Positions 2,538 through 45,866 of a stretch of DNA of 64,000 nucleotides are shown one piece after another. This DNA comes from Sphagnum magellanicum. Its lineage: Eukaryota; Streptophyta; Sphagnopsida; Sphagnales; Sphagnaceae. Every line of letters begins with the position of its first letter. Position 1 is the stretch's first letter. The DNA lies in the NCBI GenBank assembly GCA_021904315.1, contig CM038920.1, forward strand, positions 12,338,001-12,402,000, in the 5' to 3' direction. Made by a program: the position numbers and the translations under genes. The notes under the pieces were generated by a model. It saw only the letters and a program-made list of their open reading frames with translations. It searched no databases and was not told where the DNA came from.

Positions 2538-3784
2538 GGACCCTACAACATACTTTCTAATGCAAGATGACACTCCTTAGAACTTGATTTTACTTCATTG
2601 GGGGTTTTGGGGGGGGGGAGGGGTACGGGGGACATTTTGGATAGGTACTTTGGAATAAAGTTTAACATTCTTATGGTTGTAAAGAGAAAAGCAACTCTTC
2701 TTTTGCACTTGCGCTTGAGCGCGCGCACACACACACACAAAGTATTCCATGAGGGATGTCGGAATTGGCGCATGCACGGAGTCCCTACCACTATGGTGAG
2801 AAGAACCCGGAAATTATAAAGGACAAGAAGAATGAAGATCACACAACTTTACTAGTTCGGTTGCTTTCATTCAACACCACGCAAAAAACACAAAGAAACA
2901 ACAAAAGCCTTATTTATTGTCACTTGGAAGACCAAATCTCTTGAAGACCAAAAACCCCAAAAAACCCTAATTTAAGTAAACCCTAATATGTATCAAATTG
3001 ACCTTCAAATTGCTCTCCACCACAGGCTCAAGAAACAAAAAAGGATGCCCCTTTGCCTAAAGGGAGAAAATACCTTGGTCCCTCTTTTGGGTTTTTGTTG
3101 GCTCACCTCTTGAGGGAAGAAGAGACTTGGCATTGATGAATGACAATGAGTTTAGGGTTTTGAATTTTAGAAAATAGTGTCTTGAGCTTTTAAGCCAATG
3201 TGTGGGTGACGTCTCGAGACCTTGTTTTTGTTCGTGTCATCCATATTCGTTAGTTGGGATTTTATTTTTTTTGGGGTAATGAGCCTCTTTTGATTGGTCC
3301 ATCACAAAAAAGTTGTGAAACTTTGGAGATTTGGCCCCGCATTATAAAAATATTTATTCCAAACATAGAAACAAATTAGTCCCAATATTGGCCCACCTAT
3401 AGATAGAGGTTGTTGGAAGAGGACAATGTTGTGCAAAGCATATGGGACAAAGTGAGGTGCTATTTGGGAATATGTTGGGGAACACATTGGGAACTTGGGA
3501 ATTTTGTGGGAACACATCAAGAACGACAAAAAAAAAAAAAAAAACCAAAAAAATCTCTCCTACCCATCCCCTTAAAAGAAAAAACCAAACTTTTGAGTGC
3601 TTGCTCCAATCTTCATTAGTGGAGCATAATTTCCACTCCCAACTATATTCATCACCTATTTTGGCCTAGGCTAATGTTAAGGGCATAAATTGTGAGGACA
3701 TAATTTTTTTTTCTTGGGACAAATTTTAATAATGAAATTAATTCTTTTACCTAATCATTTTTCATGATTTTGTTCAAACTTGCC

Positions 3785-8559: not shown

Positions 8560-9372
8560 GAAGAGAAAGGGGAAAGAAGAGAGAAGAGGGAGAGAGGGAA
8601 GTCGAGAGAGGAGAGCGCGCGCGCGGGGGGCATTTTGCGGCGTCGAGAGGCGCAGAATCTGCTTCACGTTGCAACGAATTCTTGCTCCAATTTGTGAAAT
8701 TTTAAAAAATAATTTAAAAAAAATCTTGGTGTGGAGGAGGTGTAGAGAGGAAGGAATCGAATTGGGTGGGGGGGTTTTGGGAGGACTCGATGGGTTTGGG
8801 AAGCGAAGAAGTAGAAGAAGACGTGAGCGCCGCGTCGGGAGGTGGGAGGAAAAGAGGGAGTGCGGATTTCGAGCTTCTCTCATCGTCCTTGGAGGTTTTT
8901 TTGCAGAGTTTCCAAGTCTTGGGTTTGAAGGAAGAAAACGTTTTTTTTTTTGTTTTGGATTTTGGGTTGTAGTTAGTTAGTTTGTAGGAGCGGCAGGCGG
9001 AACAAGAAGCATCATCAGCAGTAGCAGCACCAGCACCAGCAGCAGAAGGAGAGAAAAGAAAAACCCAAGTGTAGTAGGAGGAGAGTTGGAGGTCGAGAAC
9101 GGACCTCCTTCTTCTTCTTCTTGTTTTGGAGGTGTGGAGAAAGCGTGTAGGAGGGCGGAGGAGAGGCAGAGTGGTGAGAAATCCATCCGGGGTTTGGTAA
9201 GGGAAGAAGAAGAAGAAGAAGAAGAAAAAGAGGAGAGTGGGTTAGCGCGAGAGAGAGAGAGAGAGACTACGACAACAAGATCTTTTCTGGATGGTGAGAC
9301 ACGCTGTGGATCATCTGTGCCACTTCAATGCAAGCTGTTGGGAGGCACGATTTGAGGAGGGAGAAGGGGGCC
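8560..9372 (+). promoter_or_regulatory. GC/purine-rich leader and probable 5' UTR of the giant ASH gene
   Basis: Strongly purine-biased: GA tracts at 8560-8615, a gcgcgcgcg run near 8615-8630, a cagcag/caccag cluster at 9013-9045, (GAA)n at 9205-9230 and (GA)n at 9248-9266. Such purine/pyrimidine microsatellites are typical of plant 5' leaders and core promoters. Open frames in it carry only low-complexity peptides. No certain TATA box or start site can be named. Confidence 0.5.
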
Positions 9373-12300
9373 ATGGCGCCCTACGAAGCCGTGGTGGGAG
9401 GCCACCAGCACACCACTACCACCACCACCACCACCACCAGCGGAGATGGCTTCTTGTTCTCCACAGACATTTCTAACAATGTGATCGAGCTCAAGAACGT
9501 GATCTTGAACGAATTCCACGTTCTCCGCAAGTTCTTCCTCATCAGGTCTTCACGTTTTTCCTGCTTTCTTTCTTGGGTAGTAGGAAATTTTTTCCCAGGG
9601 TTTCTTTCTTTGGGTGCCCACCCCCTGAATTCTTCTGTCTTTGATGGGTTTTCTTTTTTCATGCCATTCATTAGTATGTATATGGGTCTACTACCCACCC
9701 ACATGTTGTTGCTCTTGTGAGTAGTACTACTACTCTCTTGGTGATCACAATATGACAATTGACATGTTGCAATTTTCTGTGTGGACCCACGGATCGACTG
9801 ACCAATCGATTGACCGACCAATTGACCAAGAGCAGTTTGTGCAATGAAGCTCTTTCCATTCAGCTCAACAGCGACCTCGGTTTGCAGATTGGATTCCAGC
9901 TCAACAATGAGAACCTCGACAATGAAATCGAGAACAGTAACACTGAGCCAACAGTTGCCACTTTTCTTGCAGATGACTTCAATCAGGTTTGTGCTGCTAT
10001 GATGATGATCTGAAGGCTTATGTTGTCAATGCATGTGTGCAACCTCAACATTCTTTGTGTTTCTGGATTCATCAGAAATCAAAGGAATATTTCTTGCTGT
10101 TGTGCTTGCTCATGTGGTAAGATAGATGCATGGCAGATTTTTTTGGTTTTTTTCCATGAACCCCAAAGATGTGTTTGTGATGCTATTCTTCTTCTTCTTC
10201 TTTGAGACATTTGTGTAGACAGTGATATTTCTGTATTGCATTCAATATTGCATCTCTGAATTAGGGTTTTCTGACGAACTACAACTTTCCTCGACCCAAA
10301 TAAAGTTTTTGTTTTGGCATTTTGCACAACTACCCTGCAGTTATTCAATACAGTGAATCTAGTGAGTGAGGTGGTTCTCCAACCTCGGCAAGTGCAGCAA
10401 GTGATCATCAGCTTCCGACCCAATGAAGTCTCAAATGATATGCCAAAGCCCGCAAGAGACTACAAGGAAAAAGATGACAGGTCTCCTACTCAGGTGGGGT
10501 TTAAATTTCTCCTCCTCCCACCACCAGGTCGTGAAGCAATTGGATATTGCTCTCTTGAGAGAGAAGAAGCTTCTTGGCCTTTGTAATTTTACGTTTTGTG
10601 GTACAATCTCAGACTGTTCTTTTTTTCAAGTGAATGATTGTTCTATTATCTATGGTTTTTGCAGCAGAGGCTTTTACATAATGGACATGTGGAGCCTTCG
10701 AAACGGGTGTACTCAAGTGCAAATCAGACATTCCATGTTCATGGAAAGCTATTTCTATCTGCAACAGTGCTCAGTGAGAATCGGCATGGCAGGGACCAGA
10801 AAGACCTAGGCAGCCAGCAGCAGCAGCATCAGGTTATTACTGTGGATTTCAACTCCACAGTATGTCGCTCCACCTTAAAGACAGATGTCTCTGAAATAGT
10901 TTTTGAGGACTGTGTGCCGGGAGGAGTTTTTGTCAAAGACTTCAGCATATGGAATATCTCAGAAATCCCCTGCACATTTCAGCTTTGTGTAAAGAATGTT
11001 GCTATGGAGCATCCGGTGCGTTCTAATTTTTTTTTTAAATTCCCCCTCTGACTTGAGTAGCTATATGATATGTCATTTCAGTGATTCTTGCTAGGCATTT
11101 AGCCAGATAAAAATATCTCCTTGTGACATTAAAGCAAGGAAAAGATTGCTCTTGAGTTTGTGGTTACATTTTTTCTCATATGTTGTTCCATTCGTGTTGT
11201 TGCTGGCAGATTTTAGCCCTCACAGACTATGATACAGGGCTACCTGTCTCAGATGGAGAAATAAAGAGCTGCGCACATCGACGAATCCGTGTAACATATA
11301 AGCCTAGAGATGTTGGAGATTTTTCTTACTTTGTACAACTTGACAATATGTTTGACAGCAGGAATTCCAAATCCATACCCATTCAGTGTCTTGTGAGTTC
11401 TTTACACTCATACCATGATATATCCTTGTGACATGTTTTGAGAAGAGTCTGAGGGTAGTAGTCTATGTAGGATGTGCCAAGTCATTCCACAGTTGAAAAT
11501 GGTTGATGCGGAGGTTGAACAAAATTGATAGATCCTGATTGCAGAGAGGGAAAAAAAGTTGTGGGTGAAGCTCCAAATTTTCATCTGTTCTGTGGGAGTA
11601 TGTATTTTCTAATTGAAGCAGTGTTCTTTTGTACAGGTGAACCCGGAGCAGCAGCAAGAAGGACTTCTGGTAACAGGTGTTGGAGAGGACGGTGTGCTGG
11701 ACTTTGGTGCTTGCTATTCTGGAAATGGAACATGTCAAATGCTGACACTTAGAAACATTACTCCTGAGGTATTATTGTGGCTTCTCTATGTATTGTGGGT
11801 TCTCAAATGTTTTTGGGAACTACAAAAGTTCTCTGCAGTTTCCTTTGAATGGGTTATCATCATTTTTATGTTGGAATCTTTGCAGGCTTTGGTGGTCAAT
11901 TTGGGCTCAGATTATGCTCCCGGTGATCAACTTGCTTTCTATCGACAGACAGACTTGGACCTTCTATCACCTGATTCCAAAGCTCGGTTAAAGGATGTTG
12001 TGAGCTATGATGAGGATGGTGTTTTGGATACAGATGAAGCTCGTGCAGCAACTGTACTTTTAGATAAGCTTGTGAGTGCAAGGTGTTTTGAACACCGTTA
12101 AAAAAGCCTTAAAGCATTCATCATGTCACTCATGGTTTTGCTGCTGTCTTTCTTGCATTGTGAGAGAGAGAGAGAGCTGCCCTTTTTCAGTGAAATATGA
12201 AGATAACTTTGGGTTGTTGCAGCAGGGGGGATTTCTTGGCTTAAAGTGATTTGTGTGTATGCAGGGTAACTCCGTCAGTCCCAGCGTCAGGCTCAACAAG

Positions 12301-15300
12301 AAGAGTAGAGTGGAAGTGATTTCTCTTGGAAGGGGTGAGGAAAAAAACCTTCTAGTCTGGCTCTACCCTGCAGGTGCAAGTGACGAATTAAAAGCCGCAC
12401 GATTGCAAAGGCGGAGTTTCCGGATCTCTCTCAAATGTGCAGAAAAGAAGGGCTATACTAAACAACGCTTCTCAAAGATCATCCAGGTAGGTATCTTGCA
12501 CTCAGCATCTTGTGCATGCATGGTTTCAAAACCATCTGCCAGATTTACTCTGCCCTTGTCAGATAATGTGTGGCTCCTCTGTTGGTACCAAATCACACTG
12601 GGGCATGATCTCTCCTCTTTCTAGATGTTCTTTGATGCATTGATTGACCCTTGGTATTGTGTTGTCTTTGGGAGTTATGATGCTGTTTGGAGCTTCAGTC
12701 CTGGATTCTGTTTTGATGACCCAAAATGTGCATATTCTCCCAAATTGTGCAGTGCAAGGCGCAGGTGTGCACATCAATTGTCAAACTTTCCAGCTTGGAG
12801 TTGAACTTCGGTGATTGCAACATTGGATCGGCAAAGTCATCCAGCGTGCAGATCCTGAACCGCTCAGATCTCCCAGCTCTTGTCAGCTCATATGTGACAT
12901 CAACGATCATCAGTCTAAAGAGCAATGCGGAACGAGTCTCGATACCTCCAGGAGAGACACATAGCCTTGACATTGATTTAGTGCCCTTGAAAACCAATCT
13001 CAAGTACCGGAAGCAAATTAGAGTGGACAACTTGTTTAATAAGGATAATAACCAAGTCTTGGAGGTTCGAGCCAAAATCATGGACCATCATCATGTTCTC
13101 TTCCATTCTTTGTTTTACAAGCTGAAGACACCATCCTCAAATAACTTCCTTGATTTTGATGGGTGACTTTCTGAGCCTCTGTTATGTTTTTTTTGCACTT
13201 GTTTGTGTGGAGTAGTGACTGGCTTTGTCTGTGCATTTTATGTCTTTGATTTTGTGTGGGTACTAGGCTTTTGTGACAAATGCTCATCACCTCCATTGTC
13301 TGTTCTTGTGGGTCAAGCACAACAGTTTTGTTGTCATGGTGGTTGAGATGTGGGTGGGTTGCTTTGGCAGTGTTGTTGTAAACAACCCAAGTGTAAAGCT
13401 ACTGTCAGTTGAGAACATCACAGACAAGAAGCTTACACTGGGATTCAACACCTCAATGCCTGAAGAGCTTGGCATCTATCAATTGAAAGATGAGTCACTT
13501 GAGGAAGATGGGATCCTGGAGTTCGGAGACACATGCAGTCTTGTTAGTGAAGGAAGTGAGGAAGACTATTATGACTATCGGAAGAGGTATTTCATAACAC
13601 CCACCTCAGGATTTTAGAGATATTATTTCAATTTGGTCATAGATCGCTCAGTTTGTTTTATTTCCAGCAATTATATTCTGGGGGGGGGAGTTGTTTATGT
13701 GTCAGAAATGTTGTTTCATATGTGTAGTAGTAGAAGCTTTGCTGTTTTACTAAATGAAGTCGTAAGTGCTGAGAGTAGTAGAGGCATGCCAAAACAGAGA
13801 GTGAGAGGGTGCATTGTATGCCTTTTTTTTGTTGTGGTGTGTATCAAGAGCTTACGCAGCATCGGTGAACAAGGAGAAAATTCTCGAAACTCTTGAGGAA
13901 TCACAGCCTCGACTGAGTAAAGCAATCGTGGACTCAGCTCCATTTCCTGTGCAACAGGGTCATGCGAAGACCATGCCTCCAAGACATCCATTTCCTGTGC
14001 AACAGGGTCATGCGAAGACCATGCCTCCAAGACATCCATTTTCAACATCTGATAAAAGGACAAGGATTAGGTGGGTGGTTGTAAAACTCTTCTGGGTTGC
14101 ACAATTCATGGTTTACTCCTTTGTCTCCATTTGTTCTGGAACATGTGGGAGTGGGTCATTTGTGGGAAGGAATGAGAAGGTCAGATTGGCATGTCAATGC
14201 AAAAACTCCGTGTTTCTTGCAGGGGCTTTGACAGGATGTCCCTTGATCTGGGAACCAGCCGACTGTCAAGTAATATGGCCAACAACGCATTGGAGGCAGG
14301 AGCTCCTGTTCCAGTTGCAATTCCAGGGCAGGCCAAGTCACAGGATGATTCTGCTGCCAACGTAAAGCCTTTTTCAAGCTCAGCCCCAGACCATTCTGGT
14401 GTCCGTTCCTTGAAAAGAGCCCAAAGCCATTTGATGCTGGGTGGTAGTGGCACTGAGGATGCACGAAAAAATGTCCGTTCTCCTCTCCATGAGGACTCCA
14501 GCCCGGAGGAATGCATTGCAAATGTCTTGAATCGACTTGGAAGCACATCTTTATCAAGTGTATCCCTTACTGATGATGATGCAGTGAAGAAGGTTGGTGT
14601 CTGTTCTAACTCTAACTCAAAAGCTCAGAGTGTTTTCTATGTGAAGTGCAATACTAGAGGGTATTTCTTGTAAGACTGACTTGTTGGTATTTGTGGGTCT
14701 CTCTCTGCTCAGTACATAGATGATCACATAAGAGATCGGGAGCTTACAGTGCATGCGTTGGAAGATGGTCCTCGAATTCTGTCCACTCTTGGGAGACTTG
14801 AGCTCCTTCCGGGTGAATCAAAAAACTTGTTTGTTGTGCTGGTTGTGGACGGTCAGTCACACTCCTCATTACAAGGACGTCTCCAACAGCTTGAAGCAAA
14901 GGTCTGCAACATCTCTGTTCATCTATCGAGGGATCTAGTCCAGCTTCACTGCTTAATTTTGTAGAGTCTTCAAGATTGGTGTAAAGGGCTGATGGGAAGA
15001 TGGCTAGTGTTCATTGATAGCAAAGAGAGACCCAATAGAGAGGAGAGTACAGTGGCAGAGATCCTTACATGAAAATCAAGTCTTTAGATGGGAAGTAGCC
15101 AATTCCAGGACAATCACATATGGGTGTGTGAGATGCTTGTTTGACAAGTCCACCTTTTCCATCAGGTCAATAGATCTGTCATTTGTGACTGTGTTTTGCA
15201 GGTGACTATTGAGTTGCTGGATTATGACACAGAGCGTCAAGAACATATGGAACCTGGATTCCTAGAGCATGCCATGGATGAGGACCTACTGACACGAGAG

Positions 15301-18300
15301 CTTCCTGTGCAAATCAAGGTAAGGGATCCCTTCTCCTAAACAATCATCCCCAGAGAAGTAAAGTATTGGAACTGACTACTGCAGTTTTTAGCGACAGTTT
15401 CTTTCTTATGTGTTCACTGAAGTGTACCTGATCGAAAAGTTCTTTGCCGATCTAAATTGGGTTTGGGATTGTGTTATCCAGGTTTGTCGGGCATTGTTAT
15501 CTCTAGCACAGAAGAATATCAGTTTTGGGAAGATGCTCACAAATGAGCACCGTGCAAAAACTCTGGTGTTGAATAACATTGCAGATGTCCCTCTGCTCTA
15601 CAAGATCAAGAAGACAGGTAAGAATGGCTAGCAATTACAGATGGGTTTTGAGTTCATTCTGGTTGTCAGGGTAGGATCTCTTGGTCATGTTGGAGAATAA
15701 CTGACATAGTGAGAAACTGCTGTGTCTTGAAGGGACCCTTTCCAGAATTAGAAAAGTGTAACAGAAGCGTGTGGGAAATTATTTCTGTTTGCATAAGAAA
15801 AAGTATGTGGATTTTTTTGCAGGGTCTATTGCGTCGGGTGATCTTCACATCATTGATGGGCGTACAGGTGTTCTCAAAGCTCACAGTAGCCAGGAGGTCA
15901 ATTTTGTGTTTCAGCCTTCGCTGAGTGGCACTTTTCAGGAAACTCTAACAGTGAGCAACGTATATGATCCGAGCAATGACCAGGTGGTCACCTTGAAAGC
16001 AACCATTAGCCGGGCAGAAACATTCTTGCTGAACACCTCAGACATCGACTTTGGGGCAATGATCTCAGGTCAATGGTCAACTCCACAAAGCGTCTTGATG
16101 TTAAACACAAGCAAGCAAACCCGAACATTCATGTTGAAGGAGTTGGATTTGGCTAGTGCTAAACAACAGTCACTGTTTGGAGAAGATTTTGTAGCCACAG
16201 AACTGCCTGCTCCAAAGCTGAGGTTTCTAGTGGAACCCAAGAAACTTCCATCGTTGGACCAGATCCCTCCTGAGCAAGAAGCTATTGAGGCATTGGAGAG
16301 GAAACTCTTGGCGTACAAGAGAAAGGGAAAGAAAGACAAGGTAGCAAAAGTGCAGAGGGAGATAGATGAATTAAGGAGTGCTAAGGAAAGTGCATCTGGA
16401 GTACCTGAGAAGGACGAGGAAAGACGATTGGGTGAGGTACAGGCACTAGATAATGGTGCCATGACTGCTAGTGACATTGAGCTGGATCATGTTGGTCCAT
16501 GGGGGAGCGGTGATCCAGTGCTTGGCAACGACAATAGCTTGTGCTCAAACTTGAAAGAATCAGAGGGTTTTACGAGTTTCATTTTGAAGGCTGGTGATTC
16601 CCAGGTATGGGGGTTTTGGGTCACTGTCAGTTCTATTTTCTGGAATTGTAGTTCACTGTGAACATGTGAGGGAATGTGTCACATGAGTGCAGAGTATATG
16701 TGAATGTCAGGACCCTCAACAGTGAATACCTGAAGCCATAAGATCCTTTGTTATGAAGACTGGATTTAGGGTTTAGAAGCTAGGAGCCATTTCTTCAGCT
16801 CCAGTTTGCTAGGTTATATATGCTAGTTCAGTTGATTGGTATCTTGTTATCTGACAATTGTTGTCATACCTGTTTTGTAACCAGGTTGTGCTTGTAAGTT
16901 GCTTTGCATCCCTTTCAGAAGCCACATCTCTCAGCAAGAATGTCCATGGGGCCTTTGTTGCATATGAGAGCAAAAATCAGGTACACATGTCTGCATAACC
17001 CTGTTTGTTGTTCTTAGAGTTCTGGAATCCCAAAAAAAGATGAGCCCAGTTTTCCATGCGTCTTTAAATATTGTTCATTTGTTGCTGTTCCAAAATGACT
17101 TAGCCTGAATCATTCTTGCTTTACTGTGACTTAAAACAGGATGTGGTGAAACAAATTGATTTCAAGGCTACAATCTGTTCTGCTTCTCCTGATGATGAAG
17201 GAAGTGTTTCAAGGTCACTAAAGCCGGTAAGGGGAGCATAGGAAAATTGTTCATGGGTTGGTGTGTTCTTGAACCATATTGTGTCTTCTTTTGCTGACTA
17301 GGATCTGAGACACTTTGTCACATTAGTCTATGTCCAAATGATCAGTTTTGTCTGCATCCGGTTTTTGTCCAATTGGGTTTTTCTTGCTTGAAAAAAGGGA
17401 TTTTCCTTGGTTGGTTCCAGTACAGGATAACAAATGTGACAAACTTGTACTAATGTCCTGCAGGTTCAAGTGGCCAGCTCTCCATACTCTTTGTCTGCTC
17501 CAACTCCTAGTCTGTCTCCAGACAGTTCTGCCCCAAACTCACCTTCAGGTGGCCAGACTCCTAAGTCTGGTGCTGGAGGACATCCATTACAGAAGACATC
17601 TTCATCAAATCTGTCGTCCTCTAATGATGGGTACGTGGTGGTTCTGAATGAGAACCTTGACACTCCACCTGGGCCTTCTCATACTCTGTCAACTGACTTG
17701 GGGCAGGCATTGGAAACTACAAGCACATGGGACTCTGGGCACCATGTCATGCATTGGCAGGATGATCTTCTTGGGCCTCTTGATGGGTGCTTTGATCCCT
17801 CAAGCATGGATGACAGTAGCAATGGTGCCAGCCAAGCTGAGAGTTTAGGCAGCCTTTCCACCCTGGAACCCCTTTTTGCCATTGAGTTGCTGCAACCTGC
17901 AACAGATAACATCCTGGACCCAGTGCTGACAGTGGCAGATGATGATATGGACTTGTCATCAGCAGCAGCATTGGCAAGGAGTTTATCACTACTACATCGC
18001 CTCGGAGGGCGACAGGATATCTGCATGCTGGACAAGGAAAAGTTTGCTGGAGAGGTGGTTCTTGAAGACTATCCAGATGGTGAAAAAATGGAGGCGTCCT
18101 TTCTGTTAAGGTCATTGTGTGCACATGACATATGGATACAATTTCAACTTCTGTGGGATAGGCAATTGCATGAACCTGAATTATGGGTTGGTGATTTTGA
18201 CTTCAAGGTGGTTGGCAATGGAAATGTCGGGTGGAGCTCCATGTTTGCCGAAGGGCTTTCTCGTTCAGGAGCTTTGATGGACACTGCTTCTTCTTCATTC

Positions 18301-21300
18301 CAACCAACAAAGCTTCTCTGGCAAAGGGTTGAGAGCAGGCATTTAGAAGCATCCGGAAGTATTCCCATGCTCGTGACATCAGCCTTCCTAAAAGGGACAA
18401 TGGCTAAGTGGGTGACATTACGTGTTGCAGACAATCCTCCTCCCATGGAGTCTTGGGATACATCTCAAATTGCATCAGCAGAAAATGGTGGCACTTGGGG
18501 GTGGGGGGAAGAAGCTGGTCACCTGTGTGGTGGGGTTGCTGGCAGCTGGCGTTCAGGAGTCCTGACATTGCAGTCACAGCCTGATGAGAGGACACAACGT
18601 CAGTTGCTTGTGTGCATGAAGCAACCAGAAAGAGTTCTAAAAGTTTCACCTTCAGAAGTTATCTTTCCTGAGTCTGAGCTTTCTTCTGTGTTGACTAGAG
18701 ACTTCTCAATCAAGAACCGAACTGGGCATGCAGTAGACTATTCGATCAAGGTATCTGGACCCACATTGCCAACTCAATCATCTTGTCGACCAAACAACAA
18801 ACTGCAGGAGGGCTCAACTTTAGTAGCGAATACTAGTGTTGTTACTTGGTCAGCTTTCACAAGAACCACACAAGCAAATTCACCCTTGGAATCCGTTGTA
18901 TCTGTAAGCCCCATGTCAGGGCTGCTCAAGCCTCATGAGTCTGCAATTGTGAGAATTCTTTGCAAACCAGTGAGACCCGGTAAGCAGGTGTACACCCTTC
19001 ATATAAAAAGTTCTCTGTGCCTCAGTGACAGTGAGATAAATATCACACTAGAGCCTTGCAGAGTTCATTTCCTGCAGCTACCAGATCTACAAGATGGCAA
19101 CTTGGATATGGGATTCTGCTTCATCAATGCTCCTGGCAACGAGAAGATAGTTCCCATTAAGCTGTATAACAACTCTACTGGGACCTTGTCCTTGTCATTC
19201 CGCTCTAACTTGACAAAACAGGTCCATATGTCATTGGATCCCAATGGATGGACTCGCACAGATGAAATGGAGTTGGCTCCCAGAGCATCCAGGACTGTCT
19301 TCCTGTGCTTGAGACCCAGTGGTGACAGTGCAGCTTACAGAAACGGACAATGCAGAGAAATAGTTGGTGGGATGAGAGTCACTGCCCTCTCTTCTGAACA
19401 TGCCAGAGCCATAATGGGAGGAAGCAAAGAGGGAATGACCGATCAGATCATGTTGAAGTTCAGAGCAATGGTTGGCCAGAGCTTGATGAAGGTATCAACC
19501 TCACAAATCAACCTTGGGCGTCTGAAAGAGATCGGTGGGTGCCTATCCGGGCATTTTGTTGTCTCTAACCCAAGTGCCCAAATGCCCCTAAGCTTTTCCT
19601 TGTCTTCTAGGCACGCCATGTTATCCTGCACAGAAGGCTATCTGGTCGGGAAAGAGGTTGCCAGGACATCAAATGACACTGCAACAGTATCAGAGATAGT
19701 GGTTGAGTTTCATTTACCAGTGAGAGACTATGGTCTTATTGAAGACACTGTGATAGTTAAGAACATGTCTTGCCCTGGACAGAATGCAGCAGTCATCATT
19801 CAAGTTTATGTAGATGGTGGCTTGGTTGAAGCGCAGGTTGAACCCGCACTTTCCCACTTTGAGTCGGCAGGGATGGAATTCTCAATGGGAGACATGGGTC
19901 ACAAAATTAGGAGAACACAAGGATGCATTCCAGGAATGCCTCCATCACTCTCAGGAGACTCTTCCAGGGATTCCACCCAAGTCCAAGAAAAGGAGACAGC
20001 CCAGTCCATGCAAGGGGCAGCTGCAATGGGTGCAAAGCAACACAATGAAGGTATCACCAATATGAGCTGGAACAGTTGCAGGCTTCTTGAGGACAATCCT
20101 TGTCTTGATCTCGGCACTGTGTTCACTATTCTGGGTACTGCTGACAGGAGTACTGCTAAGAAGGATTCCTCTCCAGACAAGGAATTGAAGGAATTTCCTG
20201 ATCTCATCATCTCTGATTTACGACCATACCATGCTTCCTTGTTGATCACAAACCACTCTGCTGAAGCAGTTACCTTGCAGCCTGTTAGTTCTCTGCCAGT
20301 GGTTGTAAATGTTGATGTGAAGTATGCCACAGAAGTTTCTCATGGAATTTCAGCTCACGTTCAGACTGGTGGACAATGTGGGAGATCCCTTATGACTAAT
20401 GGTTCTCGAGCATCTCAGTCAGATTGTGTGGACCTCTGCTGTACAATACTATCACAGGAGCACACTTGTGGATTGGAGGAGGCTGCACATGATCGAGTCC
20501 ATAATATGTGGGTTGCATGTGGGCATGCATTCACTCTTGCAAAAGGGGGCACAGCTCGTCTATTTGTTGCTTGTCGAGGACTGAACCCACTGTCTGCATC
20601 GGACTCTGATCAATTGCAAAAGGGGAGGCTTTGTGCATTTGAGGGATTACTGGCATTTTGTAAAACCACTGTAAGGACATATGAATTGGGAGGTTTGGAT
20701 GACAGTCCAAATTCTGGATGGCTTCATGCAAATGAGGATTGGCAAGGTTCACAAGTGGTGGAGATTGTGTCTGTAAGAGGTTCCATATGTTTGTCTTTCG
20801 GGGAGGTTGTCACGAAATTCATAAATCTTGGAAAAGTGGGAGATGCGAATGGGTGGGACGATGTCACTTTTGAATTTACCATAAAGAACCTTAGTGATGC
20901 AGTCTTGTTGTACAATTTTGTTGATGTTCCGGGAGTTTTCACTTTTGCATCAGAGAGGCTGCACGGAGCTTCTACTTCCCAAAAGCTATCAAACATTGTG
21001 GCACCCAGAAGTATGGTGACAATTCAGGCCCTCTTTCATGCATCAAAGCTTGAGCAGATGAAAGTGGCAAGAACCTGGTCATGGAAGGTTCAGTTGGTGA
21101 ACTGTAATAATCCGCTCAATTTAATGGAGCTGGCATTGGAAGCAGATATGACTGTTCGTAATCTTTGCTTTGGAGCTTTGACAGGATCTGTCTTGCTCTT
21201 GCCACCCATCACTGTCCCAGCACCATTGTTACCAGCACCTTGCACCAAGAACTTCATTGTAAGCTGGGGATTTTCCTTGTGCAACTAAATCAATGTTTGC

Positions 21301-24300
21301 TTATGTGGGTGGCAGTATTGTTTTCAATTCAGATATCTAGTCATGCTTGCTCTTGGTTCTCGATGTAGCCATCCTAATCTAGTAGTGCACTATTTTTTGT
21401 CGTCCAAAACAGGTTCAAAACTTGTCCCTGGAATCCCTCGGTGTGGCATTGGAGCTCCATCAAGTAGAGGATTCCGAGGCTCTGGTATGTGGGTTTTGTC
21501 TCTGGATCATAACTAGGAAATGGGTGAATATAATTTGTGCTGATTGTGAAATCTAGATTGCACAAATGAAGTTTCTTTCAACGATGCAGATGAGCTTTCG
21601 AGATGTATTGTTTCCTGTTGCTGCACTCAAGCATGGACTGCAGTTGATGGATGGTGTTGTTTTGTAAGAACTTCTGCTAAGGGTGTTCATAAACAGGTGG
21701 TTCTTGAGGTCACAACTCAAAAGCACGGGTCAGTACGTGAGCTAACTTTACAGCCAGGAGAGAAGGCAGAGTTGTGTGTGGGTGCACGCCTAATCTCTGA
21801 TTCCATTCCTCATGCTTTGAAGGGGAATGAGACTGAGAGGCCAAATGGCCACCTTACCAGTTTCTCGAGTGGCTCATTTCCAGAGACTGTTTTCAGACCC
21901 CTTCTAGGAACCCTGGAGGATGTAGCCAGTATGAAACAGCCATTGCATCATGAGAATCAACATGGTACCATTGCCACCAGCAGCTCAACACTGAGCACCA
22001 CATTGACCCCTTTGAGCAGTTTCCCCGATTCAGAACATCACTTGGAGATTGCAGGAACTGTGTGCTTAGGCCACCTATATTTGTACTCCTCTCCCCAGCC
22101 AGACTGTATCTCCATTCATGGAACACTGCTGGCAGGGCCAGTGTTTGATGTATCACCCCATACACTTCAACTGCAGGTGTGTGTCACAACATGAGATTTT
22201 GTCAAAGGTGTAGTAAAATGGCAGGGTTTTATGTTCTTAAGTCCCACCTTGAATGCCTACTTCTCTCAGGACAGATTGTGCTTTGAGGACTATGTATTGA
22301 GGAATATCATATAAATTCATTCATAGACATGCTGCTTTGCTTGACTGCTTGGTTTTCTTGGGCTGACATTCTCTGGCTCTTTATCAATGATTTCAGGCAA
22401 AGTTCATGGACACGGGAGCACCATCCATTAGTCTGAATTGGCCAGAAGCTGGGGTGGATTTTGTGTCTACCGATCCTTTTCCAAGAGTGGAAAAAGATTT
22501 CAAGGGCGGTCGCCTAGGAGCCTGGGAAAGCTGGCATGATAAGTCTGGAACTGTGCAGAAAATAGTGGTTCAAAACTTGTTGGCTTTTGATTCGCTTCAA
22601 TTCAAAGTGCAGGTAGAGGATGTGTTAACTGACGAGGTTGGAACTGTGTTCCATTCTCTTGAGGTCCAACCACAGGAAGCCAATGTGGCCCCAACAGAGA
22701 GTGTGGAGGTCGTAGTTAAACCACTACCATGGTCCACTGCAATGCATGATGCATTTCTCAAGCTATGTTCAGAGGGTTTGATGAACATTGAGTACCTATC
22801 AATTTTTGTCACACTCCGAGATATTGAGAAGCGTGATAGTGGTAAGAGGATCGAGATTCTTATCAAGCCACCCACTTTTCCTCAAAGGACTACCCAAAAA
22901 GAATTGAACTTGGAGACTCAAAAGCAAGTAGTTCTGGAGGAGAGTGCCAACAAGACCAACAATGGGGAGCATGTCAAAGGCCCACCTGTTCTTGGTCTTC
23001 GGGGCTGTACACCTGTGGGGGGGAGCACTTTAAGCTACAAGTTCGACTTGGGACAGCAGAATATTTCAGCAGGTGGCCATCTGCACTGGGATCTCACACT
23101 TGTTGGAGACAAGGAGTGGCCGATTTCTTATCGTTTGTGTACAATTAGTAGCAGCGATGCAAGCTGGCTAAGTATTAGCAGTTGTTTTGGGGTTGTGGAA
23201 GCTTTGCAGCTCAAGACTGTTAAGCTTTCATTCTCAACCAAAGCATTGGGTGAGCAGGTCTTCTCTTTGAAATCCCCTCTGCTTATTTGCATTGTGGCTC
23301 ATCTTCACTTTTTTTTACTTTTACTGTCAAGGCTGCACCTTGACCACCTTTGTGTGTTTTCTTCCTGAAAGTGTGAAGATCTTCCAACTGGCAGGTGTGT
23401 ACTCCACATACCTCATGGTTGAGAATCTTGAAAATCCAGGAGATTTGAAGACAGTGCATCTTAGTATGGAGGTTGTGGCTTCAAGGAACATCCGGCCAGA
23501 AGCTCCATCTCTCTCCCTCTTTCATGTGCTGGTGCAAGGAGACAAGTAAGGGTTTGAGCACTGAAGAAGTAATTTTACTGTTTTAGGAAGCTATCAAAAA
23601 TGCTACTTTTGGGATAGCCTTTTTCATAATTGCATGTGGTTTCACCTACGATTGAATGTTGCTCAAGTCCTCCAGCACCCCATTCTGTGTTGTCTGAATC
23701 TCTGGTTGTACAAGAATCATCTGGGTATAGTGCAGGTCTTTTTTAATTTAACACAGATCAGGATTTTGTCAGACCTTGGGCTCTTTCTAAGCACAAGTCA
23801 TTCTTCATGATCTTGAACTTTGCCACAGGAAAGCTCATCATATCTTCCATATGTTCTTCACTTGCCACTTCTTGGTTATGGTGTGCAGGACTGAGGAGGA
23901 AGTCATAGACATGGGTGAAGTCTACTACAATTTTTGGTATCGGAACCGTTCATTTGTAGTGGTGAATGAGGCTGCTGTAGCAATGGAGTTTCTTTTATCC
24001 TCGAGCTTGGACCACAATGACTCGACCGAGCTCAATTTCTCCTTAGCAAATTCATCTCTGAAGCGCTTCAGTTCAGTGACAGTAGATGCAAAGAGCAGGT
24101 TAGTTTGTTGGTTATTACTCACTGCTTCATGGGAGGCCATTTTTTTTCCCTATTTGACATAGGAGAAATGAGAGCATCTGAGGAGCTCATTGAACCCTTA
24201 AACTTAGTGAAGACAATGCATTCTTAGTTCTGGTGTCCAATTTCAGGTAACTAGATTGTTTGTTGCCTGCTTTGTGCCCCAGGCAAGCCTTGGATAGAGT

Positions 24301-26875
24301 AGAAGTTATTACTGCTTTTGGCTGCCAACTTACTTCTTGATCTGGAGTCTGTCTTTTGCTCAATGCAGTATACGGCTTTGGATCCACTTCTGCCCAGGTC
24401 GAGCAATGGAGAAGCATATCTCAGAAGACACGTGTGACGAGATTTCAGCCACCATTTTTGTGAATTGCCGACTTGTGAAGGTGTGGTTCTTGCAAACTCA
24501 TTTTAGGTTCAGTGGGTTGCCAATCCTTCTCAGTATGTAGTCAGCATCCTTCTTGGTTGCTTGTTCCAACAAACAAAAGGAATGAAGGTGAAAGAAACAT
24601 GTATGTTGCATTGCAACACCTCAAAGGGTTATAAAATGGTTTGTGCAGGACTATCAGAGATGTATACCTTTTCGAGCTAAGTGTCGGTATCCGCAGATTG
24701 GAATCTCTTCAACAGATCTAGTATTTTCTACACGACGGCAAGGAGTATTGCAAGGTCTTATGTCCATAGTTGAGGATGGGGACATTGGCTTAAGTGCAGG
24801 ACCTGTTAATGCTCCTTTCATCGAGAATGTCTTAGTACAGGAGTTGCTGCAAGTTCCTCACAACTTGGGCTTGGACATTCAGTCTGGAAAAATGGAAAGT
24901 AGTACAGGAGGGGTCGAGCTGGATATGATGCCATTGCAATCTAAAGCGGCAACAAAAGTTGTCAAAGATGAGGAGCTGGAACTGGTACCTCCCTTGCAGG
25001 CTCTTATTATAAAGAACTTGTACATACATCAGAAGCTGGAGTACATAGTGAAGAACGATTCCCTTTTTTTCCAAACCGATTGTCCTGAGCCACAAGTGAT
25101 CCCTGCAAGAAGTGCTGGTGAAGGAGGTGCAATAGACCTGGACAAGAATTTGACTCAATTAACTTCAGTGACCAGTCAAGCATTCCATTCCATTGTGGTG
25201 AGGCCTAACCCTGAGTCTTTACATCTCCATCGAAAAATGATACTGAAGCAGAAATACGTGGAAGAACACATGACTGTCTACAACCGCTTCAATCCACGTG
25301 AGAAATACACAGTCAGCTTACGCATAACAGCTGGTCATCTTCGCAACTTTTTTGCTGCACCAGGGTATGTCAGAGTACTGTCCCTACTATACGTCTTCAA
25401 CCAATGGGTTGGTGCAAAGACAGGTGTGGTGATGATAATATTGCACTGTGGCATAATTTAGGATATTGAGTGTTTTTTTGTTCCTATGCCTGTAGTGGGT
25501 GAGATGCAATGTTGTCTTAGATAACCAGAGGAAGCTTCTGACAATCTCAAATGCCAAGGTGCTGCATACAAGTGGATTTCTCTCTGAGATTCCACAAGTG
25601 GGATTCTTGATTTGAAAGTCAAACTGCTGCTTGCTCTGGCCTTTGAACCCTAAAGGGTACACCTTGGAGCAATGAACTGATACAGAAGTCTGTGTGTGGG
25701 TGTGGCTGTGTGACAGGCCCAAAAACTCATATCCCTTTGGGCGCCTTGAACTTGCCATCACATGGTTCATCAGCAGGTTTAACTCGCTTATGAGTGGGTT
25801 ACTAGAGGGGCTTCAACACAAATCATTGTCAAGACAGAGATCTGCCGCCCAGATGACAAACATTACAGGGGAGCTCAAAAGCAGCAACAATGGATTTAAT
25901 AAGATGGAATCACAGCCCTTACTGGGCCAGTCACTGAAGAAACAGCAGGAGTATTTGAACCAACACACTCAGGAAGCATTTGAGGAGCTTGAGGAGTGCC
26001 TGGGAGCTCTCTGTGCTGTGGAAGACCACTCACAGCGCTATGGCTCCCTCTTTTTCGACTTCCAGTATCTGACAGGTTCCAGTTACTCTGTGGTTTGCAT
26101 TGTCCAAGTGATGGGTCCACATCTAGAGCTGTTCAGCACAGACTAGTGAAGTTTGTGCACATACCCAACATCTGGCTACTTCAGATCTTGAAAACTGGTT
26201 TGTGGATCTGCAGATGAGCTTGTGTTCTACAGCTTGAAAGAGCGATGGAGCCGAGGTGGTGCCACGCTAGAGCTTGGCACAGTGCAACTTGCAAAGCTTC
26301 TTTACTGTGCTCTTTTTCGATGCCAGGTTCTTTTCTCAATATCTTTTGCATATCTTTCAGGTTATGGGACATCATCTAGTGTCAGAGGTTCATTCACTAG
26401 CTGTTGCTCACCAACATTTTGATATTGTATTAACATTGTAGAGTAAGGTCAACAGGTTTCTCCAATTGAAAACAACTAAGTAGGGATCTCACCGATTCTG
26501 GTTCGTTTTATGACACAGATCTTCCACCTTTGCTTGGATGGGTGCTCTTCATTCACCAAGCTGAAAGCATGCCAGTTTTTTAAGCCAGAAGATCTGGGGT
26601 TACAGTCTAGGCTCCACTTGAATACAGCAGATGGATTGAAAATCAGTGAAACAAAGGTTGACAAGCCGAGTGAGGGAAGACCAAAAGAGCTGGACTATAT
26701 TCCAAAACCTCCAAAATTTTGTTTGAAGTTTGTCGAAGATTGGACAGGCCAACTCCGACATTTTCTTTCATTTTTTCCCGATAGTCGCGATGATCTCCTG
26801 CCCCTTCGAGATTTGAACCAGAATCTTCAAGAAGTTATCATTTCTTGTAGAGCCACCTTAGAGAAGATACCATGA
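9373..26875 (+). CDS. Giant multi-ASH/PapD-like-domain protein, 29 exons, ~3,797 aa
   Basis: Exons placed by splice signals and frame: 9373-9545, 9836-9986, 10341-10493, 10665-11015, 11210-11392, 11637-11768, 11886-12071, 12265-12486, 12753-13162, 13371-13586, 13849-14070, 14223-14592, 14713-14901, 15202-15318, 15482-15617, 15823-16604, 16885-16980, 17140-17226, 17464-21258, 21413-21484, 21697-22176, 22397-23249, 23395-23545, 23889-24098, 24369-24480, 24649-25364, 25717-26075, 26214-26326, 26519-26875. They sum to 11,394 nt with all phases matching and one terminal TGA. The ATG has a good context (gccATGG); an in-frame ATG at 9328 is an alternative. No signal peptide or membrane helix is obvious. 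Repeated beta-sandwich signatures of the ASH/MSP/PapD type (an I/L-x-F/L-G start, then a strand ending in N-x-S/T) appear near residues 225-335 (EIVFEDCVPGGVF), 350-440 (VLDFGACYSGN), 525-640 (LELNFGDCNIG), 1037-1125 (NISFGKMLTNEHRAKTLVL), 1138 (DIDFGAMISG), 1784 (EVIFPESEL), 1910, 2068 (QINLGRLKEIG), 2184, 2501 and 3050. A charged helical segment sits near 1220-1260. ASH proteins (HYDIN, CFAP47, CFAP65, DLEC1, TMEM131) act mostly in cilia, centrosomes or secretion; I cannot place this one. The exon 1/2 junction is the weakest. Confidence 0.8.
9406..9440 (+). repeat. (ACC)n/(CAC)n microsatellite in the first coding exon
   Basis: A run of acc codons gives nine consecutive threonines at about residues 14-22 of the giant protein, preceded by HQH. 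Its length is probably variable between individuals and it leaves the frame intact in multiples of three. Confidence 0.85.
13940..14035 (+). repeat. Exact in-frame 48-bp tandem duplication in exon 11
   Basis: Two consecutive 48-base units (13940-13987 and 13988-14035) are identical by eye and encode the 16-residue segment PFPVQQGHAKTMPPRH twice, followed by a partial third start (ccatttt). It lies in a low-complexity linker between ASH-like segments of the giant protein, near residues 757-788. The identity means the duplication is recent. Confidence 0.9.
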
Positions 26876-40865: not shown

Positions 40866-43800
40866 ATGGAAGAACGGAGTAGGTCCTTCTCCTTCTCCTT
40901 GTTCTTGGTGCCAACTTTATTGGTGTTCTTCCTCCCTCTCTCTACTGCTACCGAGTATGATCACAAGGTAAACCATCTCTCCACTCTCGTCATCTTGATC
41001 ACATCTTGATCACGAAACCCTACGATATGTTGTCACTTGTTGTAAGGCCAACCGGCAGCATTTCCAGATCTAATAGCAGATCTTTGTCTTCAGGATTTCC
41101 CTGTGGAGTATTAGATGAGTTGGGTGTTGAATGCTCTTCTATTTAAGAGTTTGGATCTTCCTTGGCGTCCAGAATAGGTAGGCACTCTGCTTATTAGGGT
41201 TCTTGGTAATCTGACTGACTTTGGGTGGGGGAATTTTCTTCTCCTGAGAGCAGTATTCAGTGGGGGATACGGTAATGCTATGGGTAAATAAAGTTGGACC
41301 ATACAACAACCCTCAAGAAACATACAACTACTACAGCTTGCCATTTTGCAAACCTGGAAAAGGTGCAGCGGCAACTCATAAATGGGGAGGACTTGGTGAA
41401 GTTTTGGAAGGGAATGAGCTCATTGATAGTGAGATTGAAATTCAGTTCAAAGGTAAGATTTTACTCTCGTTCAACTCATGTTCATACTCCTATTCAACTC
41501 ACGAAACTGGTGAAACGAAGAAGAAAGTTCAGGCGTCCATTTTGATCCACACTTGTTGCTATGGCCAACTTCACACAGAATATTACTTTGCTTCGGACGA
41601 TTGAAAAAAAGCAGTTGGGTTATCAGTCCTGAAGATAGGCTCTTCTGCTTCAGCTTAGATTGTCCGATTTCAGTGGTGAAATGAAAACAGTTTTGTAGAC
41701 AGCCATTTGGTTATTGCTGTGCAATGGGCTCTCACATTTGATTTTTCTGCCCTCTGTTATTTTCTTGGCTTTCTGCAGTTCCAATGGAGAAGAAGACAAT
41801 CTGCAATCTTGAGCTCAATCATGAAACGGCAGATGCTTTTAAGGACGCTGTTGCAAATAGCTACTGGTTTGAATTCTTTGTAGGTAATGGCTCTGCAATC
41901 TGAGACAGATTGAAACACCATATTGCTTTTTGTTAGCCATGGGTAACACCTGGACTTCCAGTCCATAGTGCTTCTCTTCAAAAGTTTCTGATCTATACAT
42001 CTTAAGGAGTTCATGGTAAGAGAGATTGCATTGATCCAAGTGATCTGTTCATAGAGCGCAGTTGTGCAGTAGTAGAAAGGGACATCTGGTTGCTCTTCCT
42101 TGTATTCAGAATTTCCCTTTTGAAACAGTTGTGATCTGTAACCGCTTCCTGGATCTCCTATTATAGAAGCCTGTTTATAAGCCTATAGAAGTAGATTTTG
42201 ATTTCCACTTCCTCATGTGCAATTGTCTGATTATAGCTGGTTTGGTTTTCTCTGTGGGGACATATTGAATACTTGGCATGGAGTTTCAGATGATCTGCCA
42301 CTGTGGGGTATGTGTATCTTCAACAAAGACCCTAGACTGAATTTTAGAGTTTGTCTTTGATCTGAATTTTTATTTTTTTCCCATGCTTGAATTTTGTATG
42401 CATCTTTGTAAACATGTATGTTGTTTCTCACCTTGTGCATTTCCCCCAGCATGATTGTTGACAACAGGTTTGGTAAATGAGCTAGAATATTAGACTGGAC
42501 TAATACTTTATGAAAATGTGTATGATTCCAGGGTTTGTGGGAGAGTATCATCCAGAGAAGAATGACGAGGACTCAAAGTATGTAATGAGCACACACAAGC
42601 AATTTGTGATCAAGTACAACAGTGACCAGGTAATTTACACCTCTGTTTGCAAGCACAACAAGCGCCTGAGTAGCTTGTGTTTGTTCTCCTGTTTTTACCT
42701 TATGGAAAAATGCTATCTGGTGCATCAATTTGATTGGTTGTGGGTGCACAACTTACCATCTGATCAGGATTTTGGAATTGATTAATTGTAGGTCATTGAC
42801 CATCAAGGCCAAGTACTCAAGGAATTAGTGAAGTGTTACATTTACTGTGTTCTTTTTCACTTCAGATTATTCAAGTCAACTTGACACAAGAAAATCTTCA
42901 GCCCATCAAAGTGGGGAAATCTTTGGAGCTTACATATGCTGTTGAGTGGGTTGAGACCAATATCACTTTTGCCAGGCGCTTTGATGCCTACTTGGACTAT
43001 CCATTCTTTGAGCATCAGGTCAACCCATCTGTCTCATGCCTTAATCCAGAAACCCTAAAAGATGGACCCTTAATCCGAAGCCTGACATATGCATATCAGG
43101 TCACACATATGTTTGTTTGTTTTCATGAATTAGTTCATGGCTGCAAATGAGGATTTGTTTGTTGCACTCAGAGGTTTGTGCAAAGATCCATGTCTTCTGA
43201 TGTTGATCCACATGCTGGCTACGCAGATCCACTGGTTCTCAATATTCAACTCATTTATGATGGTCATATTCCTCACTGGGCTTGTATCAATGATTCTCAT
43301 GCGGACTCTTCGCAATGACTATGCCAAGTATGCTCGTGAGGAAGATGACTTGGAAACTTTGGTAAGCAAAACTATTCTCAATCACGATCTCTGAGGTTTA
43401 GAGTTTAGGGTTCAGGTCATGATCTGCTATATCTTATGCATACAGTCTTATGAAATGTGATCTTGCTGTTTGTTGCATTCTCTATATACCTATCCATGTG
43501 AAAAGAACTGAAGGAATGAAATCCATTTGCCATTCCTGGGATTCCTACAAGCCTTTTTTGCTGGGAAGCTTTTTGGTTAGGGTTAGGGTGGATGTATATT
43601 TGTCAAAGTTTTTAAGGTCGATAGCTGCATGTTAATGGAGGGAGTTGAGAGTTCAAGGTCTACAAGCAATAGCAGTGAATCAAATTAAGACACAGAGTCA
43701 TGGTTCAACAAACTGACAAGCATTGGTGTTGCTGTAACATCTGCAGGAGAGGGATGTAAGTGAAGAGTCAGGATGGAAGCTGGTTCATGGAGATGTGTTC

Positions 43801-45866
43801 AGAGTGCCCAATAACTTGGTGCTCCTTTCAGCCTTGGTGGGAACAGGAGCCCAGCTTGCAATGCTTGTTCTACTTGTTATCCTCTTCGCTATTATTGGGA
43901 TGCTTTATGTTGGGTATGTTAATTCCCTGTCCACTTAAAACTTACCCTTCATCACATTGGGGTCCTCATACTCTGGAGTAGGTGCAAGCAGAACTGATTC
44001 TTTTACTATTGAGTTGCAGTCAATCAGGCAAATGAGTTATTGGTCTATGGCACTGTACCATATGACAGGCTCAAGAGACATTGTTTGCTTGGAATATGTG
44101 GTCACAGACGTGGAGCTATCGTCACAACTTTTATTGTGTGTTATGCCCTCACATCATTTATATCTGGATATGTTGGGGGAGGATTTTATTCCCGCAATGA
44201 TGGTAAACCATGTCCTCTTTTGACATCAGCATTTAATCCTTAATCAAGTAATGGTGTTATAACCATTTATATAATGCTGCAGGATCTTTTATCACCTTTC
44301 CAAAATGGGATGTTTTAGTTCTAAAACAACATTTTCTGTTTCAACTTGAACAGCTAAAATTAATGTTATAAATTGTAAGAGCTATGGAAGAATGCTGTTC
44401 ATGGTCTGACTGTGCATTGTGTGTGCAGGAAAGCATTGGATAAAGTCGATGCTTCTAACTGCTTCTCTGTTTCCATTTACTTGCTTTGGAATTGGGTTCG
44501 CTTTAAATACAGTGGCCATCTTTTACCATTCTTTGGCAGCCATTCCATTCGGCACCATGGTTAGTCTTGTTTCTCTTGCCAGTTTTATTGAAGACTATTT
44601 CTATCTATGGTATAGAGTGTCCTAGCTGTACCTCACAATTTCAGACAGTCAGACTGCAAACAGTTTAAGTTGACCATCATGAAACTTCATATTGTTCTAT
44701 ATTGACACAGTCATTTGGAATTCTTGGGATGGTGTCAGGTGGTGGTATTGGTGATTTGGGCATTCATTTCCTTCCCATTAGTGCTGCTAGGAACAGTTTT
44801 GGGCAGGAATTGGAGTGGAGTTCCAGACAACCCATGTCGTGTGAAAACCATTCCCCGTCCCATTCCTGAAAAAAAGTGGTATCTGAGACCTTGGGCTGTG
44901 GCACTCTTGGGTGGGCTTCTTCCCTTTGGCAGTATTTTCATCGAGATGTACTTTGTCTTCACCTCCTTCTGGAACTACAAGGTACTTCAATCCTTCACCT
45001 GTTAATGCCCATTCAGATGGTTACTTAGCTAGTCCTTAGGTCACAAAGAGGCTCAAACTGGTTTGATTATCCAAAAATGATGTAATCTTCTTTTTGAACT
45101 GCAAGTCATTTCTCTCTCTAAGGTCATTTGCAGTGTTATGTTGGGTTGTTGACCAAAATAATTTCTGATGGAGAAAACTTTGAAATAAAAGATGGCAGTC
45201 AGACTGTCACATAATTGGAGCAAAAGGTGTGACATTGTGGAAAGAAATTGCACAGGCTGTCTTTTGGTGTCTTTGGTATTATTGAAGACCTGCTGGAGAG
45301 CATTTAATCCAACTGCTTTTTTGTTGCAGGTGTATTATGTGTATGGGTTCATGCTCCTTGTGTTCCTGATACTTGCAATAGTAACAGTGTGTGTGACTAT
45401 TGTGGGGACCTACTTTTTGTTGAATGCTGAGAACTACCACTGGCAATGGACATCATTCATTTCGGCAGCATCAACAGCTGGTTATGTGTTACTCTATTCA
45501 ATCTACTACTATTTCATGAAGACAAAGATGACTGGCTTCTTCCAAACCTGTTTCTACTTTGGCTACACTCTTATGTTCTGTCTCGGTCTTGGAATTCTTT
45601 GTGGTAAGTCACCAATACCTTCAACCCAAGAAAATGGCTTGAATGTGAATCAATTTCTTTTGGTATTCCATACAAGTGCTTTTTTGCCATCACTTTTTGT
45701 GTTGCTGAGATATGTCATTCCACAACATGGACAGCAACTTGTTTAATGAATGACTTGATTTTGGAAGTTGACTTGGTTATTTTTGGTTGTATATACAGGA
45801 GCACTAGGGTATCTAGGGTCATCTGTTTTTGTACGAAGGATTTACAGAAACATCAAGTGTGATTAA
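40866..45866 (+). CDS. TM9SF3: Transmembrane 9 superfamily protein (nonaspanin/EMP), TM9SF3-type, 595 aa
   Basis: Thirteen exons give an uninterrupted 1,788-nt frame: 40866-40967, 41254-41452, 41779-41883, 42290-42307, 42532-42629, 42866-43018, 43227-43361, 43747-43913, 44108-44202, 44429-44559, 44739-44981, 45330-45603, 45799-45866. A hydrophobic signal peptide covers about residues 7-28, then a lumenal domain with [14 protein letters not shown] and DDLPLWGFVGE. Nine hydrophobic helices lie near 226-250, 295-325, 329-350, 361-390, 402-424, 455-480, 483-511, 523-545 and 553-585. Hallmarks are [26 protein letters not shown] and [16 protein letters not shown]. The C-terminus is IKCD, a KXD signal of the kind reported to bind COPI and retain plant EMPs in the Golgi. 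The length matches the human TM9SF3 class (about 590 aa). TM9SF proteins act in Golgi/endosome membrane sorting and cargo export. All family hallmarks are intact, so it is probably functional. The 18-nt fourth exon is unusual. Confidence 0.95.

Follow-up and report, generated by a model that had tools for sequence, protein, structure and literature searches.

We have reconstructed here a gene of 29 exons that occupies 9373-26875 on the forward strand of the window, i.e. the whole 64-kb stretch of DNA that was analyzed. The exons join into a frame of 11,394 nt with 3,797 codons plus a stop and no internal stops, and the introns are GT-AG in all 28 cases and 117-354 nt in length. The locus is most likely one intact gene with a product of about 3,800 residues, and its exons and other features in the rebuilt model are as follows.

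9373..9545 (+), exon 1, aa 1-57; alternative in-frame start at 9328
9402-9439, CCA repeat in exon 1, encoding poly-Thr near the N-terminus
9836..9986 (+), exon 2, refined model
10341..10493 (+), exon 3, refined model
10665..11015 (+), exon 4, refined model
11210..11392 (+), exon 5, donor shifted relative to the Viterbi run
11637..11768 (+), exon 6, refined model
11886..12071 (+), exon 7, refined model
12265..12486 (+), exon 8, refined model
12753..13162 (+), exon 9, entire ASH domain D04 (aa 527-630), from Pfam; predicted all-beta
13371..13586 (+), exon 10, refined model
13849..14070 (+), exon 11, contains a perfect 48-bp tandem duplication
14223..14592 (+), exon 12, insert of low hydrophobicity, probably disordered
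14713..14901 (+), exon 13, refined model
15202..15318 (+), exon 14, refined model
15482..15617 (+), exon 15, beginning of ASH domain D06; acceptor shifted relative to the Viterbi run
15823..16604 (+), exon 16, remainder of D06 (aa 1028-1131 overall) and start of D07
16284..16397 (+), D07 insert, Lys/Glu-rich and probably helical, about aa 1225-1262, by eye and composition
16885..16980 (+), exon 17, added by hand, missing from the Viterbi run; coding score above zero
17140..17226 (+), exon 18, refined model
17464..21258 (+), exon 19, 3,795 nt, aa 1393-2657, S/P-rich linker followed by several ASH/MSP-like segments
18631..19062 (+), D09, MSP-like domain, aa 1782-1925; Motile_Sperm 1.1e-7 (18598-19068); 1/200 shuffles
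19477..19827 (+), D11, ASH-like segment, aa 2064-2180; own-profile score 17.2, 0/200 shuffles
21413..21484 (+), exon 20, refined model
21697..22176 (+), exon 21, acceptor uncertain; 21557 also open
22397..23249 (+), exon 22, refined model
23395..23545 (+), exon 23, refined model
23889..24098 (+), exon 24, refined model
24369..24480 (+), exon 25, donor shifted relative to the Viterbi run
24649..25364 (+), exon 26, split and extended differently by the Viterbi run
25717..26075 (+), exon 27, both ends shifted relative to the Viterbi run; the C-terminal region (aa 3523-3797) begins here
26214..26326 (+), exon 28, acceptor shifted relative to the Viterbi run
26519..26875 (+), exon 29, acceptor shifted relative to the Viterbi run; stop codon included

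The duplication in exon 11 (13939-14041) is in frame, repeats 16 residues, and is likely recent. Elsewhere in the window, a PPR-DYW gene at 59563-61196 (+; PPR_2 3.8e-21, DYW 2.3e-33) carries an in-frame stop inside the PPR array (59971-59973) and changes frame ahead of the E/DYW part, and because of these features is probably either a pseudogene or a copy that was mis-assembled. Its presence points to a land plant as the source, and its repeats bear some resemblance to fern PPR families. A TM9/EMP70 (nonaspanin) gene of several exons lies at about 42800-45750 (+), with EMP70 matches of 1.5e-29, 5e-27, and 5.8e-16 on three pieces. Several open frames at 46986-55228 (+) resemble the exons of another gene, and the five pieces of these that were scanned matched no Pfam family at cut-off (lowest E 0.015). 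There are also two adjoining tandem arrays, at 1469-1893 and 2129-2539, with units of about 108 and 104 bp in four copies each and 91-92% matches; an Rfam search of the whole 64-kb window gave no match.

The gene was rebuilt from the sequence with a small Viterbi gene finder, whose training set was the longest open frame and whose splice-site weights came from general background knowledge, and was then refined by hand. The raw output had 30 exons, including one of zero length, and encoded 3,710 aa. The criteria for the changes made by hand were splice sites, frame continuity, and the beta-strand pattern, and the junctions of exons 5, 15, 17, 20/21, and 25-29, having been altered by eye from the Viterbi run, are the least certain. 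The join between exons 20 and 21 (21484/21697) is the weakest, and an alternative (21488/21557) also keeps the frame open. The rebuilt gene agrees with the preliminary description, which had 29 exons in one 11,394-nt frame without a phase error, and because those totals were known during refinement and the strand pattern was used in it, the agreement is partly non-independent; at the junctions altered by eye it also depends on the idea of ASH domains. The start is uncertain, in that a second in-frame ATG at 9328, 3’ of an in-frame stop at 9295, lies upstream of 9373, and the protein may consequently be 15 aa longer.

Support for the coding nature of the exons comes from leave-one-exon-out scoring, in which each exon is judged by a 3-periodic model derived from the remaining 28. 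The frame of the gene model outscores the five alternatives in 27 of the 29 exons, and a reverse frame wins in exons 1 and 18. The score is above zero in every exon and below zero in 27 of the 28 introns, the introns themselves being in the non-coding training set. In 500 base-shuffled copies of the coding sequence, the longest open run is 233 codons, as compared to 3,797 in the gene, and these shuffles together with the coding scores reject chance open reading frames as its source. A single gene is likelier than several, since introns of at most 354 nt leave little space for a gene end and a new promoter, and a fusion of two genes is disfavored both because the introns are short and because several lie within one domain. 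That two or more neighboring genes were merged by the model, or exons wrongly joined, is highly improbable, for although some junctions were chosen manually in departure from the Viterbi output, the exon 20/21 alternative exists, and some splice sites score weakly, the frame is unbroken across all exons and every intron is a short GT-AG intron.

A Pfam scan of the full-length protein returned 16 families at E<=1, seven of which exceed their curated cut-off, and all seven are of the ASH/MSP type, a small beta-sandwich module encountered chiefly in ciliary and centrosomal proteins; a comparison of the model with the ASH, MSP, and HYDIN families of Pfam had been recommended. The positions reported are the best stretch for each family, and the stretches above cut-off fall at four places. 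At D06 (aa 1030-1130) there are matches to Ig_CFAP65_4th (5e-17), HYDIN_VesB_CFA65-like_Ig (6.2e-17), and Cep192_D4 (5.9e-16; 59.1 bits against a cut-off of 35.5), and at D04 (aa 530-616) to ASH (2.4e-11) and Ig-CFAP74_4th (3.5e-10), which are also seen when exon 9 is scanned alone (CFAP74_4th 6.6e-8, ASH 3.6e-6). Motile_Sperm matches aa 1784-1826 (8.7e-7), and does so above cut-off in a piece of exon 19 (1.1e-7), and Cep192_D7 is just above cut-off at aa 268-324 (3.5e-6). We also note a match of 2e-15 to the NCBIfam model choice_anch_D, which we take to be a related bacterial form, a weak appearance of OCRL-like_ASH in the full-length scan, and TMEM131_like_N below its cut-off of 28.8 bits, at 15.5 bits with the full length and 27.4 bits with exon 9 alone. 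Families outside the ASH/MSP type stayed below their curated cut-offs both with the full-length protein and in the piece scans, which covered part of the residues. The C-terminal region (aa 3523-3797), D14, D16, D17, and the D05 insert matched no Pfam family at cut-off, and the D11 stretch 19501-19863 had no Pfam match in a piece scan. Assignment to the ASH/MSP (PapD-like) superfamily requires one or more modules to exceed the curated cut-off of a family, which is what is found, and several of the modules are of the ASH type.

The number of modules was addressed with 18 candidate segments drawn by eye, each of which was scored against a profile built from eight self-chosen core segments, leaving out the segment under test. 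Eleven of the 18 are supported at no more than one in 200 shuffles, with none of the shuffles reaching the score of D02, D04, D06, D11, D16, or D17, and one reaching that of D01, D03, D05a (the first half of D05), D09, or D14. D18 (3/200) and D13 (4/200) are weakly distinguished from shuffles, and D10 (11/200), D12 (12/200), D15 (12/200), D07 (38/200), and D08 (50/200) are indistinct from them. A strict B-strand pattern, devised after viewing the sequence, occurs 19 times, as compared to 2.2 on average and 8 at most in 2,000 shuffles, and a loose version 34 times (shuffle mean 15.5, maximum 28); the F-strand pattern is weak, with seven occurrences against a shuffle mean of 2.3, and is equaled in 11 of 2,000 shuffles. 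Alignment of five modules shows 16-21% identity to the first, and a single invariant column, the B-strand Asn. The earlier count of at least ten ASH segments is supported by the four Pfam places, the 11 profile-supported segments, and the B-strand pattern, such that ‘at least ten’ is a fair statement, whereas ‘eighteen’ is a guess. We propose that the protein would be a string of some 11-18 beta-sandwich modules of the ASH/MSP type, interrupted in places by S/P-rich stretches that are probably disordered and by a single charged, probably helical insert, with the C-terminal region last.

Structure prediction in pieces, which had also been recommended, was informative in part: D04 is predicted to be all-beta, and no decisive structural neighbor emerged. 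No ASH chain is among the 50 VIA-align matches listed for the predicted D04 fold, an absence that is uninformative, and a single-sequence AlphaFold prediction of aa 1771-2192 in exon 19 is unusable (pLDDT 31). In searches of PDB sequences with pieces of the model and with the whole, E values below 0.01 were obtained only for HYDIN chains, and these with D06 (1.7e-4 for 7sqc, presumably the Chlamydomonas HYDIN structure, and 8.4e-4 for 9ijj). These scores are sums of weak stretches, 11 in 7sqc and seven in 9ijj, with none strong in 7sqc. D04 matches CFAP74 (0.057) and HYDIN (0.069), followed by epimerase and complement C3 chains at 1.2-1.6, and D02 matches HYDIN (0.044) but is beaten by a GAPDH chain at 0.032, and E values near 0.05 are therefore within the noise. 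On 7sqc, D02 aligns to 558-610 (E 0.066), D04 to 1744-1788 (E 0.069), and D06 to 1752-1828 (E 1.7e-4), and on 9ijj D06 aligns to 2974-3049. Because the stretches of HYDIN hit by D04 and D06 overlap, these matches do not show a collinear series, although the order is not reversed, and with the D06 similarity also spread over 11 weak stretches we regard the resemblance to HYDIN as generic. Part of exon 19 gave one weak match to DLEC1/FAP81 (E 0.29). The whole-model profile found a chance GAPDH match alone (E 0.55), D06 and D07 jointly found ribosomal proteins and one other chain by chance (E at least 1.5), and D16 a single meaningless match (E 0.22). In viral and prokaryote collections, D06 with the start of D07 had 9 and 99 pattern matches respectively, with none confirmed as relatives.

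There are several plausible roles to consider. A structural scaffold is the most likely, because of the tandem docking modules, the long and probably disordered stretches, the lack of a recognized enzyme domain, and the lack of a clear membrane anchor, and we suggest that the gene product is a non-enzymatic and probably soluble one. The modules may provide tandem docking surfaces along an elongated rod, holding microtubule-associated partners at fixed spacing, an arrangement that would be analogous to the roles HYDIN, CFAP74, and CFAP65 are thought to play in the central apparatus. In a seed-free plant the likely site would be the sperm locomotory apparatus (the axoneme central apparatus, basal bodies, or blepharoplast), this being the only ciliated structure there. 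The leading role is therefore that of a scaffold in the flagellated-sperm apparatus, although it reaches past the domain assignment and we give it about an even chance of being correct. It leads because the central-apparatus ASH proteins named in PMC7999657 include HYDIN, CFAP47, and CFAP74, the same source reports interaction of an ASH domain of mouse hydin with the kinesin KIF9, kinesin-9A of the fern Marsilea is described as necessary for organizing and placing basal bodies in spermatids (PMC4947347), and cilia are reported for sperm in all non-seed land plants while being absent in angiosperms and some gymnosperms (PMC3268115).

A second model proposes a general cytoskeletal or membrane-trafficking scaffold that is kept also in plants without cilia, with the modules acting as FFAT-type or Rab/microtubule docking sites, and we consider this possible, if somewhat unlikely. 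ASH and MSP modules are also found in non-ciliary proteins (TMEM131, OCRL, and SCS2/VAP) and function there, and both the MSP-type module above cut-off and the near-threshold TMEM131_like_N match to exon 9 are consistent with such a role. However, the top-scoring domain models come from ciliary and centrosomal families, and a transmembrane helix is unlikely: of the 3,779 19-residue windows, a single one attains the usual Kyte-Doolittle threshold of 1.6 (1.64, at aa 2626), and it lies in a stretch with two prolines. To our knowledge there is no such giant protein in Arabidopsis.

The value of the gene hinges on its distribution across plants. If its presence proves tied to swimming sperm, the sperm-apparatus scaffold that we favor would be among the largest structural proteins in the flagellar or blepharoplast apparatus of plants, and would offer a direct gene handle on the de novo building of many centrioles and axonemes in seed-free plants and on the losses that went with the disappearance of swimming sperm. 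Were it instead retained in every plant, it would represent a giant cytoskeletal scaffold that had gone unrecognized. Among the matches listed in the open-licence literature we found no paper on such a plant protein, with subscription papers falling mostly outside that scope.

The preliminary description had set the protein apart from HYDIN, CFAP47, CFAP65, DLEC1, SPD-2/CEP192, ASPM, and TMEM131, and this holds for HYDIN, CFAP47, SPD-2/CEP192, and ASPM, which fail on the features tested, but is weak for DLEC1 and TMEM131. Like HYDIN, the protein is very large with many ASH modules, and HYDIN chains are the sole PDB chains with E<0.01 to its best module, D06. Its 3,797 aa do rival HYDIN in size, as had been claimed, with HYDIN PDB chains at 4,929 and 5,154 residues, although it is more than 1,000 aa shorter and the matches are weak and dispersed. 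The Hydin adenylate-kinase-like domain is diagnostic for HYDIN, and membership is rejected in that Hydin-ADK, a model presumably present in the Pfam library scanned, is not among the 16 families at E<=1 with the full-length protein. The likeness to CFAP65 and CFAP74 lies in models above cut-off at D06 (CFAP65, 5e-17) and D04 (CFAP74, 3.5e-10), but both proteins are about half as long (FAP74 chain 1,940 aa, CFAP74 chain 1,578 aa, and CFAP65, we presume, similarly about half), and membership is not supported, in that an ordered set of family-specific Ig domains does not appear at E<=1: CFAP65_4th and a sub-threshold CFAP65_7th share one module, and CFAP74_4th is alone. ASPM carries IQ repeats and a CH domain, and membership is rejected, as two IQ patterns had no match and the Pfam families at E<=1 include neither CH nor IQ. 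CFAP47 membership is likewise rejected, since the calponin-homology domain that PMC7999657 gives for it has no counterpart among the families at E<=1 with the full-length protein.

These comparisons also bear on whether the gene, instead of forming a separate family, is an orthologue of one of the named ciliary proteins (HYDIN, CFAP65, CFAP74, CFAP47, or DLEC1) that has diverged strongly, which we consider distinctly unlikely. CFAP65_4th, HYDIN/VesB-like, and CFAP74_4th are among the top family matches, the size is of the order of HYDIN, and the HYDIN matches of D02, D04, and D06 are not reversed; set against this are the want of any ordered series among the two CFAP65 models and one CFAP74 model, the failure of CH and Hydin-ADK to appear at E<=1, and the weakness of the HYDIN matches, two of which share the same part. 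TMEM131 membership is also unlikely, in that the MSP-like D09 and the match of TMEM131_like_N just under cut-off on exon 9 recall TMEM131 and VAP-type MSP proteins, but the protein has no clear membrane anchor.

The comparison with SPD-2/CEP192 is more intricate. In PMC11922060 that family is defined by SP2D motifs 1 (PLXGYGG) and 2 (GDEXXR), and is described as having a closely spaced pair of ASH domains, the second of which carries a bridge insert between strands f and g. Cep192_D4 matches D06, the ASH-like D07 with its large insert follows closely, and Cep192_D7 just passes its cut-off at aa 268-324. The succession of a CEP192-D4-like module and D07 with its charged insert, which spans 15488-16604 (from aa 1028 to about aa 1332), is superficially SP2D-like without the SP2D motifs. 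D06 and D07 are adjacent and D07 carries a large insert, but D07 is indistinct from shuffles (38/200) and the position of the insert, before the last strands and not between f and g, is judged by eye. Moreover, the D7-like module precedes the D4-like one in the Sphagnum protein, and membership is rejected as PLXGYGG, GDEXXR, and even GYGG or GDE alone are absent from the 3,797 aa. We consider it very unlikely that the protein serves as a streptophyte scaffold in the blepharoplast or the de novo centriole, as a plant counterpart of animal SPD-2/CEP192 with D06-D07 as a convergent or far-diverged SP2D-like pair; Table 1 of a 2017 survey marks Spd2/CEP192 for human and fly and not for moss or Arabidopsis (PMC5371999). 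Judged from its domains, the honest label for the product would be a multi-ASH/MSP protein without an assigned family. Large multi-ASH proteins are a known type, to which the Sphagnum protein is a new or unplaced addition.
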